Assembly: GCF_002177135.1 (NCBI RefSeq)
Contig: NZ_MWPH01000001.1
Span: 1,116,001 to 1,180,000, forward strand
Direction: 5' to 3'
DNA: 64,000 nucleotides
DNA from: Natronolimnobius baerhuensis
GTDB lineage: Archaea > Halobacteriota > Halobacteria > Halobacteriales > Natrialbaceae
Shown here: piece after piece, positions 4,805-25,787 of the stretch
Layout: each line of letters opens with the position of its first letter
How positions within the stretch are numbered: position 1 is the stretch's first letter
Position numbers and translations under genes: made by a program
Notes under the pieces: generated by a model
The model's database searches: none
What the model was told of the DNA's origin: nothing
What the model saw: the letters and a program-made list of their open reading frames with translations, nothing else

Positions 4805-5716
4805 TTATCGGGTATCGTCGCCGATGAGGTCGTCATCATCGTCGTCATCATCACCGAGTAACTCATCGTCATCATCGTCGTCGTCCATCAGCCCGCTGTC
4901 GTCATCGTCTCCGATCAGGCCATCATCGTCATCGTGTCGCGTCCCACGGTTATCGTCGTCGTCCATCAGCCCGCTGTCGTCATCGTCTCCGATCAGGCCA
5001 TCATCGTCATCGTGTCGCGTCCCACGGTTATCGTCGTCGTCCATTAGCCCGCCATCGTCATCGTCGTCACCAAGCAATCCATCATCGTCGCCATCGTCGT
5101 CCATCATCCCACCGTCGTCATCATCACCGATCAGGCCATCATCGTCATCGTCGTCACCAAGCAATCCATCGTCGTCATCATCGTCCATCATCCCTGTATC
5201 GTCATCGCGGCGCATCTCGCTATCATCGTCGCCCATCAGATCGTCATCGTCGTCCGCGATCCCGGCTCCACGGCCCGTATCCGTTCCAGCGCCTGCACCT
5301 GCACCGGTGGTTTCGGCCCCGCTTTCGCGGCTCATGTCGGTATCCGTGTCCGTATCGGTATCCATCGCCGAATCAGTCGCTCCCATCCCTGTGTCCGCCG
5401 TTTCGTCACCCATTGAGCCAGCACCCGCACCAGCGCCGGCACCAGCACTTGCCCCAGCATCACTCCCACTTCCCTGCAGGTCACTCTCGAGGTGAACTTC
5501 GTCGTCGGTCACCTGCGAAACGGCTTCGTGCTGCAGCGGATACGCGTCGTCATCGGTGCCACCCCAGCCGAGTTTGGCCTTGATCGTATCCGTAATGCCG
5601 GGGTCCGGTTCGACGTGTGCGGTCCCGTGGTCGACATCTGCAACGATGCCGACGTCCTCGCCATTTGCATTGATAACCGTCTTGCCGATGTCGTCGTCGG
5701 TAAACTCTGGACTCAT
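4805..5716 (-). CDS. PRC-barrel protein with long Asp-rich low-complexity tail
   Basis: The 303-residue protein starts with a PRC-barrel-like domain of about 80 residues (DIGKTVINANGEDVGIVADVDHGT is its first strand pair), as in many haloarchaeal PRC proteins. A Gly/Ala and Asp/Thr repeat region (about residues 95-165) follows. The last half is almost entirely runs of Asp broken by GLIG, GLMD and GMMD. The tail carries a perfect 26-residue tandem duplication. Function is unknown; such polyacid tails may bind cations or hydration water. The ATG at 5716 gives MSPEFTDDDIGK; an in-frame ATG at 5746 would add ten residues. Confidence 0.7.
   Translation of the reverse strand: MSPEFTDDDIGKTVINANGEDVGIVADVDHGTAHVEPDPGITDTIKAKLGWGGTDDDAYPLQHEAVSQVTDDEVHLESDLQGSGSDAGASAGAGAGAGAGSMGDETADTGMGATDSAMDTDTDTDTDMSRESGAETTGAGAGAGTDTGRGAGIADDDDDLMGDDDSEMRRDDDTGMMDDDDDDGLLGDDDDDDGLIGDDDDGGMMDDDGDDDGLLGDDDDDGGLMDDDDNRGTRHDDDDGLIGDDDDSGLMDDDDNRGTRHDDDDGLIGDDDDSGLMDDDDDDDELLGDDDDDDDDLIGDDTR
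4885..5040. repeat. perfect 78-bp tandem duplication in the Asp-rich gene
   Basis: Positions 4885-4962 and 4963-5040 are identical over all 78 bases. The unit is 26 codons, so the frame is kept and the protein gains a second DSGLMDDDDNRGTRH block. The absence of even synonymous differences suggests a recent slippage or unequal-crossover event inside the GTC/ATC/TCG-rich tract. Confidence 0.95.
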
Positions 5717-8656: not shown

Positions 8657-10105
8657 ATGAGTACGGGGGTTACGATTTCGTCGATCTCTGACTACGCGAT
8701 CTTGGGCTGTGGCAGCGTGGGCTACGCCGTCGCTGAAGAATTGGTCCAGCAGGGCAAAGACGTCCTCATCATCGACCGCGATGAGAGCCGCGTCGAATCG
8801 CTGCGCGACCAGGACCTAGACGCTCGCACCGCCGACATCAGCGAACCCGAGGTTGCCGATCTCGTCAGCGAACGCGGCGTTGTCCTCATCCTCGCGTCCG
8901 ATGTCGAATCGAACAAAGAGGCAGTCAAACACATCCGCGACCAAAACGACGGCCAATTCATCGTCGCGCGCGCGAGCGATCCAGTCTCGGGCGACGAACT
9001 CGAGGAGTTGGGCGCTGACGTCGTTATCAACCCCTCCTCAGTCATCGCCGAATCCGCACTGCGAGCGCTCGAGTCGGGTGAACTCGAGTACAACGCCAGC
9101 AAGCTTGCGGACTTACTCGAGGAGACGTCCTCTCGACTGGCGATCATCACGCAGGACAGTCCCGATCCGGATTCGATTGCGTCTGCGGCCGCACTCCAGG
9201 CGATTGCGGACCATCTCGGCATCGACTCGGATATCGTCTATTTAGGCGATATGGGTCACCAGGAAAATCGTGCGTTCGTCAATCTTCTAGGAATCGAACT
9301 CCTCCAGTGGGACGAACTCGAGGATCGGTCGGTCTATGACACCGTTGCACTGGTCGATCACGCGACCAGCGCGGAAATGGACCTCTCGGTTGATGCGGTG
9401 ATCGACCATCACGAACTCGAGGCCGATTACGAACCTGAATTCGTCGATATTCGGCCGAACATGTCCTCGACGTCGACGATCATCACGAAGTACATTCAGG
9501 AATTCGACATGAACGTCTCGGAGGAAGTCGCGACTGCGCTTCTGTACGGAATCCGCGCGGAGACGCTGGATTTCAAACGCGACACAACCCCCGCAGACCT
9601 CACCGCTGCGGCGTATCTCTATCCGTTCGCGAACCACGATACCCTAGAGCAGGTCGAATCACCGTCGATGTCGCCGGAAACGCTCGACGTGCTCGCCGAA
9701 GCGATCACCAACCGCGACGTCCAAGGCAGCCATCTCGTCTCGAACGCCGGGTTCGTCCGCGACCGCGAGGCACTCACGCAGGCCGCGAGTCACCTCCTCG
9801 ATCTCGAGGGTGTCACCACGACTGCGGTCTTCGGAATCGCCGACGAGACCATCTTCCTCGCCGGCCGGTCGAAGGATATCCGTATCAACATCGGCAAAGT
9901 GCTCGATGACGCCTACGGCGAGATGGGCGAAACCGCCGGCCACTCCACGCAGGCCAGCGCAGAGATCCCGCTCGGCATCTTCACCGGCATCGAAATATCC
10001 GACGACAACCGGAATACGCTCCTCGAGTTGACCGAAGAGGCAGTCACGCGGACGCTGTTCGATACGATGGGCGTCGACGGCACGGAAGGTTCGAACGGGT
10101 CCTAA
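8657..10105 (+). CDS. TrkA_N (RCK)-DHH-DHHA1 phosphoesterase family protein
   Basis: The 482-residue protein has a Rossmann TrkA_N/RCK domain first (GCGSVG at 17-22, an acidic residue ending the second strand at IIDRDE). A DHH phosphoesterase domain follows, with metal-binding motifs DSPDPDS (about 168-173), VDHA and IDHHE (DHH at 250-252). A DHHA1 domain ends with AGHSTQASAEIP, the equivalent of the GGH loop. DHH-DHHA1 enzymes cleave nanoRNA, pAp or cyclic di-AMP. The RCK fusion links a nucleotide-sensing fold to the hydrolase. The substrate is not determined. The ATG at 8657 opens MSTGVTISS. Confidence 0.85.
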   Translation: MSTGVTISSISDYAILGCGSVGYAVAEELVQQGKDVLIIDRDESRVESLRDQDLDARTADISEPEVADLVSERGVVLILASDVESNKEAVKHIRDQNDGQFIVARASDPVSGDELEELGADVVINPSSVIAESALRALESGELEYNASKLADLLEETSSRLAIITQDSPDPDSIASAAALQAIADHLGIDSDIVYLGDMGHQENRAFVNLLGIELLQWDELEDRSVYDTVALVDHATSAEMDLSVDAVIDHHELEADYEPEFVDIRPNMSSTSTIITKYIQEFDMNVSEEVATALLYGIRAETLDFKRDTTPADLTAAAYLYPFANHDTLEQVESPSMSPETLDVLAEAITNRDVQGSHLVSNAGFVRDREALTQAASHLLDLEGVTTTAVFGIADETIFLAGRSKDIRINIGKVLDDAYGEMGETAGHSTQASAEIPLGIFTGIEISDDNRNTLLELTEEAVTRTLFDTMGVDGTEGSNGS

Positions 10106-14727: not shown

Positions 14728-15378
14728 TCAGTCCGTCGCGCCAATGAGTGTACTTGCAATCAAGTTCCGCGTTCCGCGTTGCAATCTGGATGCAACTGCC
14801 TGTCGCGTAATCTCGAGTTCAGCGGCGATATCGTCCTGTGATGCAGTCCGCGGTGAATCGTAGTACCCATGCGAGTACGCAAGCACTAACGCCTCGCGCT
14901 GGGCATCCGTCAAGTCGTACTCACTGCCCGAATGCAACGGCGAAAGTGCGTGCAACTGGACGAGTTCGATGGGGATCCCACACTCACGACAGTACGACTG
15001 AAACTCCGAGACGGCCGCCTGCTCCGTCGCTCGGACGTCGAACGTCCACTTCTCGTGCGTGCCAACTGCCGATACCAGCGCGATATCTGTCTCGAAAATG
15101 GCCGTCAGCACGCTTTCGTAGTCGAAATCCCAGTCGATCCGAACGAACACCTCCGTCTCGAGGGCGTCGATAATCTGGAGGTCGTTGATACCCGGATGGT
15201 CAACACCCTCGAGATCAATCGCTGCTGCATCGACGTCTTGCAACCAGAAGTACGGAACCAACGCGTCGTTTGTCGGGATGACCCGCTCGAGTTCGATACG
15301 GGAAGCGGGAAACTTCGAGAAGACCTCTGCGAGCGGAAACTCTCCTTCCTCGGCGGTGAACGAGGCTTCGATGGCCAT
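14728..15378 (-). CDS. bacterio-opsin activator (HTH_10) family regulator, paralogue 1
   Basis: The 216-residue protein starts MAIEASFTAEEGEFPL and ends in an HTH_10 domain (LTDAQREALVLAYSHGYYDSPR, then DDIAAELEITRQAVASRLQRG). It is clearly paralogous to the protein at 23740-24390 along its whole length; shared segments include VPYFW, VRIDWDFD/NLD, ESVLTAI and LHALSPL. It lies 66 bp downstream of znuB on the same strand, so it may be read from the zinc transcript. The N-terminal half is probably a sensor, but the ligand is unknown. Confidence 0.87.
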   Translation of the reverse strand: MAIEASFTAEEGEFPLAEVFSKFPASRIELERVIPTNDALVPYFWLQDVDAAAIDLEGVDHPGINDLQIIDALETEVFVRIDWDFDYESVLTAIFETDIALVSAVGTHEKWTFDVRATEQAAVSEFQSYCRECGIPIELVQLHALSPLHSGSEYDLTDAQREALVLAYSHGYYDSPRTASQDDIAAELEITRQAVASRLQRGTRNLIASTLIGATD

Positions 15379-15444
15379 ACTGAGTATTCGACTGCAGCGA
15401 CAAAGGATCTGTGAACGGATGGCATACTCGGGCACGCGACCAAA

Positions 15445-16533
15445 TTAATGCATGGAGAGTGCAACACCAGAGCGACTCGAGAGCGCAATTGTTGCGAGAT
15501 AACAACAGATTGCGACGACGATAATCGAACCACCGGGTGGGAGACTCTGACTGAGCGCGAACGCAAAGCCGCCAAGTATCGAGACCTGGCCGAACAGAAT
15601 CGAGAGAAACAGCGTTTCACGGAAGCTATTGGCGATCTGTGAGGCAGCCGCGACGGGAATAACGAGCATCCCGGCGACGAGGATCACACCGAGAATCTGC
15701 ATCGCGCCGACGACGACGACGGCAGTCATAACGACCAGCAGAGTGTTGTAGGCGGTGACGTTGAGTTGGGCGACGCGGGCCGCCTGCTCGTCGAACGTGA
15801 TAAACAGCAGTTGTTTGTACGTCAACGCGATGACGGCGACGACGGACACCGTGAGAACTGCCATCATACGCGCGCCACCGGATGGCACAACCGAGAGGCT
15901 CCCAAAGAGCCAGCCCTCGATATCGATGGCAACCGACATCGTCCCTCGCCCCCAGCTAATCAGCAACGTCCCAACAGCGAAACTCCCGGTGAGCATGATT
16001 GCAATCGGCACGTCACCGAACGTGTTGGTGTGTTCGGTCAGCCACTGGACGCCGAGTGCACCGAGTATGCTGACAATGAGTGCGACGATCAACAGCGAGC
16101 CCTCCCAGCCCGTCACGGCGATGACAAGGAAGCCGACTGCAACGCCCGCGAACGCGGTATGGGCGAGCGTCTCACCGATCAGCGCCATTTGCCGGTGGAC
16201 GAGGTAGGTCCCGATTAGCGGCGCGACGATTCCGATGAGGACGCCAGTGGCGATCATTCGCCACATAAACGCGTGCTGGAAGACGTTTGTCCCAACCGAG
16301 TAGTCAATCCACATGCCAGCGATGAGGAACTGCTCGAAGAGCACCGCCGCACTGCCGTTGAGGTGGCGCAACCAGTCGAGGGCGATAAACGCGATCATCG
16401 CCGTTGCAAGCAGCGCAACGAGGCCGATCCCGACGATCTCGAGGCCGTAGCGAAGATCGAGCCCCTCGTGTGTCTCCGGTTGCTGTGCCTCCGCAGCGTC
16501 GCGTGCTCCTGAGGCGCGTTCGTCCCCGCTCAT
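15445..16533 (-). CDS. znuB: zinc/manganese ABC transporter permease (ZnuB-like)
   Basis: The 362-residue integral membrane protein is of the ABC-3 family. A cytoplasmic N-terminus of about 30 residues is followed by roughly nine hydrophobic helices. The family landmark GETLAHTAFAGVAVG is near residue 120, and AMQILGVILVAGMLVIPVAAA near the C-terminal third. It forms the membrane channel for the ATPase encoded just upstream, whose stop overlaps its start as ATGA at 16533. Zinc is preferred as substrate because of the His-rich partners; manganese cannot be excluded. Confidence 0.9.
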   Translation of the reverse strand: MSGDERASGARDAAEAQQPETHEGLDLRYGLEIVGIGLVALLATAMIAFIALDWLRHLNGSAAVLFEQFLIAGMWIDYSVGTNVFQHAFMWRMIATGVLIGIVAPLIGTYLVHRQMALIGETLAHTAFAGVAVGFLVIAVTGWEGSLLIVALIVSILGALGVQWLTEHTNTFGDVPIAIMLTGSFAVGTLLISWGRGTMSVAIDIEGWLFGSLSVVPSGGARMMAVLTVSVVAVIALTYKQLLFITFDEQAARVAQLNVTAYNTLLVVMTAVVVVGAMQILGVILVAGMLVIPVAAASQIANSFRETLFLSILFGQVSILGGFAFALSQSLPPGGSIIVVAICCYLATIALSSRSGVALSMH

Positions 16534-17273
16534 CAGTGGTGATGGTGGACGACCGTGCCTGTCGCCCCGTAGGCTTCACTTAGTGCATCGCTTTCGACGA
16601 ACGATTCCGTATCGCCGTGGTGATACAGTTGCGTATTGATGCAGGCGATTCGATCCGCCCGATCCGTGACAACGCCGATATCGTGCTCGATCAGAATAAT
16701 CGTGATTCCCGACTCGTTTAACGACTCGAGCAACTGATAGAACGCATCACGCGATTCTGCATCGACACCGACCGTCGGTTCATCCAGTGCGAGCAAGTCG
16801 GCTTCCGAGGCCAGCGCCCGCGCGATATAAGCTCGTTGGCGCTGTCCACCCGACAGTTGGTTCATCTGCTGGTCAGCGAGGTCCGTAATGTCGACCGTCT
16901 CGAGTGCGTCATCTGCAATTTTGCGATCTTCATCGCTGAGTCGACCGTGACCCACGTGAGCAAATCGGCCCATTCGGACACACTCACGAACGGTGACGGG
17001 CATCGTCCCGCCACGATCCGTTGCTTTCTGTGAAACGTAGCCGATGCGCTCGCCCTGATCGAACGAGTCCACGGGCTGGCCGAACAGTTCGACGACGCCG
17101 CTATCGGGGCTGAGAAGCCCGAGAATAATATGGAGAAGCGTCGTTTTCCCCGATCCGTTCGGCCCAATCAATCCCAAGAAGTCCCCGGACTCGATAGTCA
17201 GCGTGACGTCCTCGAGTGCAGGCTGGTCACCGTAAGCGAACGAGACGTTTCGAACGTTGACTGCGTTACTCAC
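16533..17273 (-). CDS. znuC: metal ABC transporter ATP-binding protein (ZnuC-like)
   Basis: The 246-residue ABC ATPase energises metal uptake. It has Walker A GPNGSGKTTLL near residue 37, the LSGGQRQR signature, Walker B LLALDEPTVG and the switch His in IIEHD. The C-terminus ends in four consecutive His (VVHHHH), plausible for a metal-handling protein. The start is GTG at 17273. It sits between znuA (48 bp upstream) and znuB (1-base overlap), an operon order typical of zinc uptake systems. Confidence 0.93.
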   Translation of the reverse strand: MSNAVNVRNVSFAYGDQPALEDVTLTIESGDFLGLIGPNGSGKTTLLHIILGLLSPDSGVVELFGQPVDSFDQGERIGYVSQKATDRGGTMPVTVRECVRMGRFAHVGHGRLSDEDRKIADDALETVDITDLADQQMNQLSGGQRQRAYIARALASEADLLALDEPTVGVDAESRDAFYQLLESLNESGITIILIEHDIGVVTDRADRIACINTQLYHHGDTESFVESDALSEAYGATGTVVHHHH

Positions 17274-17321: not shown

Positions 17322-18767
17322 CTACTCAGCTCCAAGTGCTGCCCGCAGTGATGGAATGTTCAACTCCTCCATCTGCTCGACCCAGCCCCAGTCCTGTTCG
17401 TTCCACTCTGCAGTCGTTCCCTCAGTGGGGCTGATCGGGACGGCGTCGGTCGCCATACTGTTCTCGAGTAAGTGTTCAGCTTCTCGAGGCATCTCGCCTT
17501 CGTTCGCGTCGAACGGATCGTACAGAATCGTCTCGATTGCTTCCTCGTCAATCAGTTCGATGGTATCGGCCAGATCACCGGGCGTTAGGTCCGCATCCGG
17601 CGAAATCGGGGACGGCGTATGAACGTCGAACCCGTATCGCTGCTCGAGATACTGGAACGAGTCGTGGCCGGCGAGGACGGCAACGTCGCGTTCAGCTTCT
17701 GCGACGACCGTCTGGAACTGCTCGTGGACGTCCTCGAGACGCTCGCTGTAGGTGTCGGCGTTGTCCTGATACGTTTCGGCGTTGTCCGGGTCGAGTTCGG
17801 CGAGGCCGTCCGCAATTGTCGTGACCATCTCCTGGACGAGCATCGGATCGGTCCAGACGTGTGGATCGTAAAACTCCGGAACCTCACTCTCGTCGAGTTC
17901 GTCGACAACCTCGAGTGTGAGCGTATCGGCGCTCGAATCCCAGACGACGTCGCCGTCTGCGACGAGTTCGAAAATAACGCGCGTTCGGCCCGTCTCGAGG
18001 CCGTGGAACTCGAGGTGGTCGCCATGAGAGTCGATATCGACGAGTCCCTCAGTTGCACCGTCGACGATGCGGGCCTCGAGCGAGAACGGGTCGCCCTCGC
18101 CGAGTGGCAGGACGCGTCCCTCGTCGTCTTCGACGACTGCGCCGACGGCACCGTAGCTGTCGACTGGGACGTCAGGCAGCCCCTGATGCCAGTGGTCGTT
18201 GTGCCAGGAGGCGGCGTCATTGCCCGTCTGGCGATTGATGAGTTGGAACTCCGCAATCGAGACGTCCGCTGGGTCACCGTCGTACTCGTCGTGGTCGTCA
18301 CCATCGTGGTCGTGGTCGTCGTGGTCGTCGTGGTCGTCACCATCGTCGTGGTCGTGGCCATCCCCTCCAGCAGCCGGCAACAGTTCCGACTCGAGGCCGT
18401 CCATCGCGTCAATCAGCGTGATGTGATCGTAATCGCTCTCGAGGTCAGCGGCGACGTTCTGTGCCCACGAGAACTCGGGTGTGTCGAGATAGACGAACAC
18501 TTCCGTGGAAGCGATGTCGGCGATGAGATCGCTCTGTGGATCCCAACCATGTCCCATCTCGCCCGTACTCACAGGGTTCTCGAAGTCCATTTGGTCGCCA
18601 GAAATCTGTTCGGTCCAATCCCAGAGAGCGAAAAATGCTGCATAGCCGCCGTCAGGATCACGTCCAGTATCCGGCTCGCTCAGACACCCCGCGAGCCCGC
18701 CGAGTGCAACGGCACCTGCACCGACGCTCGCACTCGAGCGCAGTACTGAACGGCGTGTTCGGTCCAT
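17322..18767 (-). CDS. znuA: zinc ABC transporter substrate-binding lipoprotein with inserted zinc domain
   Basis: The 481-residue Tat lipoprotein (RRSVLR at 5-10, lipobox Cys 28) is anchored outside the membrane and delivers metal to ZnuBC. Cluster A-I ligands are visible: His73 (GHGWDP), His303 in DPHVWTDP, His in LAGHDSFQYL and Asp in LYDPFD. A His/Asp-rich loop (137-160) sits where zinc-type proteins carry one. Unusually, a domain of about 120 residues (168-288) is inserted after this loop. It is homologous to the two repeats of the neighbouring lipoprotein (HxDHW and DSHGDH motifs). The ATG at 18767 is chosen because it places the Tat motif at residue 5. Confidence 0.92.
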   Translation of the reverse strand: MDRTRRSVLRSSASVGAGAVALGGLAGCLSEPDTGRDPDGGYAAFFALWDWTEQISGDQMDFENPVSTGEMGHGWDPQSDLIADIASTEVFVYLDTPEFSWAQNVAADLESDYDHITLIDAMDGLESELLPAAGGDGHDHDDGDDHDDHDDHDHDGDDHDEYDGDPADVSIAEFQLINRQTGNDAASWHNDHWHQGLPDVPVDSYGAVGAVVEDDEGRVLPLGEGDPFSLEARIVDGATEGLVDIDSHGDHLEFHGLETGRTRVIFELVADGDVVWDSSADTLTLEVVDELDESEVPEFYDPHVWTDPMLVQEMVTTIADGLAELDPDNAETYQDNADTYSERLEDVHEQFQTVVAEAERDVAVLAGHDSFQYLEQRYGFDVHTPSPISPDADLTPGDLADTIELIDEEAIETILYDPFDANEGEMPREAEHLLENSMATDAVPISPTEGTTAEWNEQDWGWVEQMEELNIPSLRAALGAE

Positions 18768-18961
18768 GTACGAGGGTACGCTCTCTCGGGTAAAAGGGTT
18801 GTTATCCAAAATAGCGCAGTTAATAATCGAAGGTAGCTATAGGCCGATTCGCTAGTAACACCGCAGAGGGGATCGAGCGCGAGGCGGGGACCGCGACCGC
18901 AACCAGTTCGGCAGACGGGGTCGCCGGATGCCACGGCGAACCCGACAGTCAGCAGGGTCCG

Positions 18962-19891
18962 TTAGTGGTCTTCGACCGTGATTGCGAGTGGCTCGCTTTC
19001 CCAGTCGGCGTGGTCGTCATGCCAGAGCATGAAGACGACCTCGGTCTCGCCGTCTGCTTCGCCGTGGATGTGGACGTGGTCGCCGTGGAAGTCGTCGGCG
19101 TCGTCAATCTTGACGATATCCTCGTTGGCGTCGTCGGCAACGCGGACACCGAGTTCGTACTCCTCGGACCCACCAATCGGAATCTCGTCACCGTGGTCAT
19201 CGTAGAACTCGCCGCCCAGCGAAACGTGTGCATCGACGTGGACGTGTGGGAGTTCACCGTCCCAGTGGTCGTCGTGATACGCCGCGACCTGCTCGTGGGG
19301 ATCTTCAGCGCGGTCGAGGATCTTCAGTTCCTCAACCTCCGCGTGGCCGTGATCGTCGTGATCGTCGTGATCGTGGTCACCAACGTCGACCTCGAGTTCT
19401 GGCGTTTCGTAGCCAACCTCGCCGTCTTCGACGAGTTGGAACGTAATATCTGCAAAGCCATCGTCCTCGCCGTGAATGTGGACGTGATCGCCGTGGAAGT
19501 CGACGTCGATCACGTCGTCGCCGCTGACGATATCGACCTCGAGATCGATTCCGTCGCCGAGTTCGATCTCATCACCGTCCTCATCTTCGACGGATGCTCC
19601 GAGCGAGAGGTAATCGTCATGGGGGATCTCGAGTGGGTCGTCGTGCCAGTGGTCGCCGTGGATGTAGACGAGGACATCCTCGTCGTGGTCGCGGTCGAGA
19701 ACGTCGAATTCGGCGACGGGGAGATCGTGGTCGTCATCATGATTATCGTCGTGGTCGTCGTCATGGTCGTCGCTGCTTCCATTGCCGTTTCCATCGTCAT
19801 CATCGCTGAGACAGCCGGCAAATGCGAGTGCTGCAAGGGAGCCGGACGTCGCGAGCAATGACCGACGAGACGAGCGTCGTGAATCAGTCAC
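18962..19891 (-). CDS. His-rich Tat lipoprotein with two zinc-associated repeats
   Basis: The 309-residue exported lipoprotein has RRSSRRSLL and lipobox AFAGC (Cys27), then an Asp/His linker (41-55). Two homologous domains follow at about 58-171 and 187-307. Each starts with a HxDHW...LP/IP...SLGA pattern and ends with DFHGDHVHIHG. The same domain is inserted in ZnuA. The gene opens the zinc uptake locus (start GTG at 19891, 194 bp before znuA). It probably captures or buffers zinc and passes it to ZnuA. The domain is not one I can name. Confidence 0.8.
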   Translation of the reverse strand: MTDSRRSSRRSLLATSGSLAALAFAGCLSDDDDGNGNGSSDDHDDDHDDNHDDDHDLPVAEFDVLDRDHDEDVLVYIHGDHWHDDPLEIPHDDYLSLGASVEDEDGDEIELGDGIDLEVDIVSGDDVIDVDFHGDHVHIHGEDDGFADITFQLVEDGEVGYETPELEVDVGDHDHDDHDDHGHAEVEELKILDRAEDPHEQVAAYHDDHWDGELPHVHVDAHVSLGGEFYDDHGDEIPIGGSEEYELGVRVADDANEDIVKIDDADDFHGDHVHIHGEADGETEVVFMLWHDDHADWESEPLAITVEDH

Positions 19892-19920: not shown

Positions 19921-19951
19921 GTTAGTAATGAACCTAACGATGTTATTAATA
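19921..19951 (-). promoter_or_regulatory. TATA box and candidate zinc-repressor site
   Basis: On the minus strand TATTAATAAC (19942-19951) is followed immediately by a dyad. The dyad reads GTTAG-N8-CTAAC on the plus strand (19921-19938). It lies 30 bp before the GTG start of the His-rich lipoprotein, overlapping the expected transcription start. A metal-dependent repressor (DtxR/SirR or Zur-like) bound there would block the promoter. The assignment of the regulator is an inference from the gene cluster. Confidence 0.45.
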
Positions 19952-24560: not shown

Positions 24561-25787
24561 TTAGTCAGACGGGACAAATCCCCGGTTCGGTGTCACCATT
24601 CCTGACTTCAGGGCGAGTTGACTGTCGCCCGTCCGCCGAGACGACTGTAGGCCCCGACGGACATACCGCCACCCAACATTCTTCGCACCGACGTAATCTG
24701 CATTTTGAGTTGCACCACACGACTCACACTCAAACTCCGCCTGTCGCACCCTATTCCCTTCGCTCGTATGCCCACACTCGGGACACCGCCGACTCGTGTT
24801 CTTCGGGTCTACAAACTCGACACTAATCCCGTGGGCTTCAGCTTTGTACTCTACAAGGTCAACGAGTTGCCGGTGTGCCCACTGGTGGAACTCTTTCACG
24901 GGCGGCGCACGCTCTCGGATGTGCTTTAGATTCTCGAACGCGATGTATTCGCAGTCGTGTGTGCGTGCTTCTTCGAGAATCTGGTTAGCGACTTGATGGA
25001 GTTGGTCACGGAGATACCGTGACTCGCGCCCACTCATCTGCTGAATCGTCCGATGGGCGGATTGTGTCCCGGTCTGCTGAAGGTTTCCGCGAATCCGCTC
25101 GAACTCTCGATGCTGGTGTCGAAGCTCTCTGCCGGATGCGAAGTACGCTGTGCTGGTGGTGGCGATGTTTACGATGCCGAGGTCAACGCCGAGAACTGTC
25201 CTGTCCTCGTCGTCATCCTGTCTTTCGACCTGCTTCTCGGGCTTCGGCTTGCGAAACCCGAGGTGGAGGTAGTATTCACCATCACGCTTTGACAGCGTAG
25301 ACTCTGTTACTTCCCACTCGTCATCGTTGAGGTATTCGTGTTGATACCCGTCTTCTTCGTCGGGAAGGTTCAAGTCACACCGAATCCGGCCATCGACAGT
25401 GGAAAGCGACACAGACCCATCATCGAACAGCGTCATCGTCCGGGTGTCGTATTTCACCGTATTACTGGTGAACTCTGGTCGGGACGTTTTGTAGTGTTCA
25501 TCGAGGTCTTCGATTGCTTCGACACCATCGAGGGCGGCTGCGGCCTGATGGGTGGCGAGAATCGCGTGTTGACTCCCGAGATGTGTTTCCTCCAACACCG
25601 TGTCGTAGGCGAGGTCTTGGAGGTAGGTTTTCCGCGTCTCACCGTTTTCCCATCCGATGCGGCTACTGATGTTACAGGCAGTTTTCCACTCAGTGATGGT
25701 GGCTTCGAGCAAGTCCTGTTGATCGGTGGTGAGGATGGGGCGGGTGATTGCGGTACGTCTCAGGTAGTCGTCTGCCACGGGTTTCAA
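24561..25787 (-). CDS. tnpB: TnpB RNA-guided nuclease / IS1341-type transposon protein
   Basis: The 408-residue protein has an N-terminal OrfB helical domain. A RuvC-like catalytic core follows: Asp202 in GVDLGIVN, Glu285 in IAFENLKHI and Asp364 in NADYVGAKN. A zinc finger lies between (Cys335, Cys338, Cys354, Cys357). All catalytic residues are intact, so it may be active. TnpB homologues are RNA-guided DNA nucleases that cut the excised donor site and favour element retention; activity here is inferred. It lacks a TnpA partner and would depend on one elsewhere. Confidence 0.92.
   Translation of the reverse strand: MKPVADDYLRRTAITRPILTTDQQDLLEATITEWKTACNISSRIGWENGETRKTYLQDLAYDTVLEETHLGSQHAILATHQAAAALDGVEAIEDLDEHYKTSRPEFTSNTVKYDTRTMTLFDDGSVSLSTVDGRIRCDLNLPDEEDGYQHEYLNDDEWEVTESTLSKRDGEYYLHLGFRKPKPEKQVERQDDDEDRTVLGVDLGIVNIATTSTAYFASGRELRHQHREFERIRGNLQQTGTQSAHRTIQQMSGRESRYLRDQLHQVANQILEEARTHDCEYIAFENLKHIRERAPPVKEFHQWAHRQLVDLVEYKAEAHGISVEFVDPKNTSRRCPECGHTSEGNRVRQAEFECESCGATQNADYVGAKNVGWRYVRRGLQSSRRTGDSQLALKSGMVTPNRGFVPSD

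Follow-up and report, generated by a model that had tools for sequence, protein, structure and literature searches.

A histidine-motif domain shared by a lipoprotein and ZnuA in a haloarchaeal zinc uptake locus: a putative zinc-capture module

AdcA of Streptococcus pneumoniae joins a ZnuA-like domain to a C-terminal ZinT-like domain; its accessory regions help zinc recruitment under limitation, and its His-rich loop region lies at the interface with the zinc-recruiting accessory domain (PMC7858048). In the AztABCD system a separate exported protein, the beta-propeller AztD, is encoded with the importer, and AztC depends on a flexible His-containing loop to take over zinc from it (PMC7463823). 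Among haloarchaea, the znuA1-C1-B1 zinc ABC operon of Haloferax volcanii, described as a three-gene operon, has a very short 5′ UTR (PMC8155600). The haloarchaeal zinc ABC operon described here shares with AdcA a cluster A-I zinc-binding protein with an extra module near its His-rich loop, and with AztABCD a separate exported protein encoded next to the importer. However, its extra domain is unrelated in sequence to that of AdcA, sits at the loop instead of the C-terminus and occurs in a separate lipoprotein as well, and it is predicted to be a small all-beta module rather than a propeller. It is best read as an analogue of ZinT and AztD that is related to neither.

The window is a 64,000-nt stretch of Natronolimnobius baerhuensis DNA (GCF_002177135.1, NZ_MWPH01000001.1, positions 1,116,001-1,180,000). 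On its minus strand the genes for the lipoprotein, ZnuA, ZnuC and ZnuB follow one another in the direction of transcription (Table 1). Directly downstream of the ZnuB gene lies a gene for a BAT/HTH_10 regulator (14728-15435, minus), which we rejected as the regulator of the operon because no relative was seen next to the operon in the named loci. Elsewhere in the window, a TnpB-like open reading frame of 408 aa (24561-25787, minus) contains a CxxC zinc-finger-like region (CPECGHTSEGNRVRQAEFECESCG).

Table 1. Features of the zinc uptake locus, in window coordinates.
Feature	Position	Strand	Basis or remark
Exported His/Asp-rich lipoprotein (P0001), two domain copies	18962..19891	-	309 aa, GTG start, twin-arginine signal and lipobox
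Domain copy 1, N-terminal in lipoprotein	19382..19717	-	alignment
Domain copy 2, C-terminal in lipoprotein	18974..19336	-	AlphaFold mean pLDDT 95.5, pTM 0.88
ZnuA, cluster A-I zinc substrate-binding lipoprotein with inserted domain	17322..18767	-	481 aa from ATG at 18767
ZnuA His/Asp-rich loop, directly before inserted domain	18273..18368	-	low pLDDT in model
Domain copy 3, inserted in ZnuA	17907..18257	-	alignment, model
ZnuC/AztA-like ATPase	16533..17273	-	Pfam/NCBIfam
ZnuB/AztB-like permease (PF00950)	15445..16533	-	Pfam/NCBIfam
29-bp direct-repeat promoter element TTAATAAC-N13-TTACTAAC	19921..19949	-	29 bp before lipoprotein start
29-bp direct-repeat promoter element TTATTAAC-N13-ATAACAAC	18798..18826	-	30 bp before ZnuA ATG

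A first-pass annotation of this DNA had proposed that one domain of approximately 115 residues occurs twice in the lipoprotein and once in ZnuA, with an HxDHW motif near its start and D-HGDHxxxHG near its end. Both motifs are present in all three copies, which span residues of about 59-170 and 186-306 of the lipoprotein and residues 171-287 of ZnuA counted from the ATG at 18767 (185-301 from the TTG start of the longer open reading frame). Pairwise Smith-Waterman comparison of the copies gave z-scores of 15.6, 22.8 and 23.4, and of 9.3, 16.9 and 25.6 once D, E and H were masked; none of 1000 shuffles attained any of these scores, masked or unmasked, so that shared acidic and His composition is not the cause of the similarity and the proposed homology is borne out. 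The annotation in fact understated the extent of the domain, which is present in each of the three znuA genes of the N. baerhuensis genome.

The identity of the host protein as ZnuA is certain from its sequence, which scores 151.5 bits against Pfam PF01297 (gathering cut-off 29 bits). Of the three His ligands and acidic fourth ligand expected of such proteins, the alignment shows the three His (MGH, DPH and GHD). The PF01297 profile matches on both sides of the domain, and Bacillus subtilis YcdH aligns up to and after the insertion point, which falls where YcdH has its His-rich loop. The insertion claimed by the first-pass annotation thus held. The gene start calls for a small correction: the 18798-18826 element lies partly inside the TTG open reading frame and 30 bp before the ATG, which makes this ATG the likely start and 17322-18767 the better coordinates. 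In the AlphaFold model, which has the cluster A-I fold, AdcA, YcdH and AztC are structural matches to the protein outside the insertion, with E about 1e-14 to 1e-16 and a TM-score by target of 0.81-0.86. The insertion itself reaches block-mean pLDDT values of 85-97, and the His-rich loop comes out as disordered. In a comparison of 41 genomes, ZnuA proteins with the insertion were mostly 460-530 aa long and those without it mostly 330-380 aa. A subgroup of ZnuA proteins (loci L003, L076, L081 and L082) has DAKFF in place of DPHVW and retains the inserted domain together with extra His-rich stretches; because these divergent paralogs have lost a canonical metal-ligand His, not every host ZnuA need be a functional zinc binder.

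Alignment of 103 nonredundant copies (43 from ZnuA and 60 from other proteins, numbered after the lipoprotein C-terminal copy) revealed W25 in every copy and H21 and H24 in 98 copies each, the two being absent together where lost. In ZnuA copies, H21, H24 and W25 are invariant (43/43) and H26 is present in 42. The second cluster, by contrast, occurs in a minority to just over half of ZnuA copies (H84 18/43, H87 25/43) and in nearly all others (H84 55/60, H87 56/60), a difference that falls short of significance when phylogeny is taken into account, with four independent comparisons only. This pattern suggests two His clusters in lipoprotein copies and a single essential one in ZnuA copies; the first interpretation was incomplete here, as the copies do not look equivalent. 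On a tree of the copies, ZnuA and lipoprotein hosts are reconciled by 6 changes, at least 4 of them forced by strongly supported branches, compared with 33 for shuffled labels. We therefore rejected free exchange of the domain between the two proteins; each host type has for the most part kept its own lines of copies, with a few independent moves.

The arrangement in the window recurs elsewhere. In 27 named haloarchaeal loci the standard order is a lipoprotein gene with one to three copies of the domain, znuA with one more, then znuC and znuB. When no neighbouring gene encodes the lipoprotein, ZnuA often has two copies (L064, L066, L071), or a C-terminal copy in addition to the inserted one (L069, L072). 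At L084, from a soda-lake actinobacterium of the Nitriliruptoria, one protein combines the domain with an AztD-like part (AztD model, E 5.7e-28); its gene adjoins that of an AztB permease, which scores above the cut-off (E 4.3e-89). In three Gemmatimonadota cases checked (L131, L134, L136), distant single-domain relatives adjoin TonB-dependent receptors; the two receptors compared with NCBIfam models are closest to that of the zinc receptor ZnuD, at scores far below its cut-off.

The two window genes also share a promoter element, a 29-bp direct repeat with the consensus TTANTAAC-N13-WTANYAAC that ends 29-30 bp before both start codons; chance alone would put no such site in the window. With up to two mismatches, it lies upstream of 24 of the 32 lipoprotein genes and 28 of the 36 znuA genes examined, compared with under 0.2% of mononucleotide-shuffled upstream regions; the related species behind these counts are not independent, and the sites and their spacing are common to two different genes. 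A pattern search of the N. baerhuensis genome found seven sites within one mismatch (two for a control pattern). Of the five assigned to genes, four precede the lipoprotein gene, this znuA, a second znuA and a COG0523 GTPase gene, and one is some 115 bp upstream of a purU-like gene. At L157 the repeat precedes a COG0523 GTPase gene and, at a distance of about 115 bp, a formyltetrahydrofolate deformylase-like gene (L157:10098-10126 and L157:6431-6459, both minus). In relatives, the repeat further precedes insertion-free znuA, another COG0523 gene and genes for proteins resembling ZIP transporters, whose Zip matches (E 2e-6 to 6e-4) fall short of the Pfam cut-off. One COG0523 subgroup has been linked to zinc limitation, and a DtxR-like ZntR has been predicted only for Methanosarcina (PMC2770081); the literature searched describes no regulator site for zinc in haloarchaea. 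The presence of the repeat before znuA, COG0523 and ZIP-like genes alike points to zinc regulation and makes it a candidate mark of a haloarchaeal zinc regulon.

Gene order, the AztD-like fusion and the shared promoter element thus support the first proposal that the lipoprotein and ZnuA share a module used in zinc uptake. From His conservation and gene context we infer that the domain itself binds zinc, and we consider it probable that it is an extracytoplasmic beta-sandwich module that raises the efficiency of zinc capture by ZnuABC through a relay from lipoprotein to ZnuA. The anchored lipoprotein copies, each with two His clusters, and the His-rich tails would collect zinc at the cell surface; the single copy inserted beside the site of ZnuA itself, with its HxDHWH cluster alone strictly kept, would relay zinc together with the His-rich loop into the ZnuA cleft, from which it would then be imported. 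Hand-over, as the first-pass annotation suggested, may take place between the two proteins.

The domain might instead bind metals more broadly, or metals other than zinc (nickel, cobalt or manganese), and serve several importers, with zinc as just one client. His-rich sites bind several divalent metals, and in Bacillota (L074, L146 and L147, the neighbours in L147 being assigned by eye only) the domain-bearing lipoprotein is encoded within CbiQ-CbiO-CbiM operons (order CbiQ-CbiO-lipoprotein-CbiM), that of L146 including a NikL-like subunit. As these are operons for metal importers, they also speak for a role in metal capture. Because these CbiM-type importers are annotated for cobalt/nickel, zinc specificity may not be universal. 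At the end of the domain-bearing znu operon of L073 lies a Fur-family gene (8732-9151), whose product fits PerR/Fur models better than Zur and so also leans this way; the same locus has a perfect 7-1-7 palindrome, TGCAAACGGTTTGCA, at 4875-4889, about 55 bp before the first gene of the operon. However, most occurrences are in ZnuABC operons, the AztD fusion stands beside AztB, and the promoter element is common to COG0523 and ZIP-like genes, which together make the broader reading unlikely.

As first stated, the domain could not be matched to a named family: no credible match came from Pfam, NCBIfam, PHROGs or PDB sequences, with none above the curated cut-offs of the first three, and a plasmid collection gave no match. 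Pfam found no ZinT/AdcA C-terminal domain in P0001, P0002 or any of the 103 copies, the AztD model NF038015 did not match P0001, and we found no literature on the domain among openly licensed papers. The streptococcal histidine triad proteins (PF04270) are likewise secreted His-motif proteins, and 6 of the 103 copies matched that family weakly (best E 3.7e-4); we did not accept homology, given the few members, weak scores and different motif.

AlphaFold predicted the lipoprotein C-terminal copy as one confident all-beta domain of 121 residues, too small to be an AztD-type beta-propeller. No PDB fold matched this model at E 0.001 or below, and the best matches were Ig-like S-layer and Rib domains, headed by SbsC (E 0.015, TM 0.54). 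Such a fold would suit a structural spacer that holds the lipoprotein and the His-rich linkers at a distance from the membrane, or lets them reach across the S-layer, and leaves any metal work to the linker His, and the domain does occur in some large multi-copy secreted proteins (L018, L070). Yet the invariant core is HxxHW and not a hydrophobic motif, a spacer would not require insertion at the ZnuA His-rich loop, and many ZnuA proteins retain the domain with little or no His-rich linker; we regard this alternative as quite improbable. Least probable of all is a zinc-dependent sensor or docking module, in which zinc bound to both copies drives association of lipoprotein and ZnuA and not transfer: both partners have the same module with its invariant aromatic residue, but their copies lie mostly in different clades with nothing indicating matched interfaces, and several domain proteins have no neighbouring domain-bearing partner. 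The zinc-sensing role once suggested is not supported: the lipoprotein and ZnuA are both exported as lipoproteins, and none of the observations ties the domain to signalling.

A pattern scan of GTDB contigs, with patterns that favour close, acidic relatives, found the domain encoded at 49 loci, 22 of them in assemblies identified as soda-lake metagenomes by record titles and the sample codes in them. All eight non-haloarchaeal loci are soda-lake MAGs by the same reading: two of Thermoplasmata (L069, L072) and, among bacteria, Izimaplasma (L071), Mollicutes (L073), Syntrophomonadaceae (L074), Gemmatimonadetes (L083), Nitriliruptoria (L084) and Myxococcales (L086). The species names at several remaining loci denote alkaliphily (halalkaliphilus, halalkaliphilum, alkaliphilum). 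Most of the other loci belong to haloalkaliphiles, judged by the pH preferences of the named species, with Halorutilus salinus (L065) as an exception. The soda-lake sampling behind these MAGs has been described (PMC6146748). A sensitive profile matched 73 of 392 genomes in the order of the window genome. At the level of phyla it matched 3 of 246 genomes for L084, 1 of 194 for L069, 3 of 249 for L074 and, mostly weakly, 54 of 249 for L083.

In carbonate-rich alkaline brine, scarcity of free zinc would have selected for the domain, and this distribution may reflect such a link. The fuller reading is that the domain is a third and new type of zinc chaperone module, independent of ZinT and AztD, spread between soda-lake archaea and bacteria as an adaptation to zinc scarcity. 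It would act as a relay in two stages, first the lipoprotein and then ZnuA, within a haloarchaeal zinc regulon whose mark is the 29-bp repeat; we put this forward tentatively, at slightly less than even chances. If true, it would add an accessory zinc-capture domain for ABC importers to ZinT and AztD, connect a protein family in a testable way with growth in alkaline brine, and provide a candidate promoter element for haloarchaeal zinc regulation.

A second, unnamed motif region, HACxHxxFDxRxPLxAG...DTH, was noted at L018, L026, L067, L070 and L182, in proteins with or without the domain. The first four carriers are large secreted proteins; that of L182 is a lipoprotein whose gene is preceded by the 29-bp repeat.
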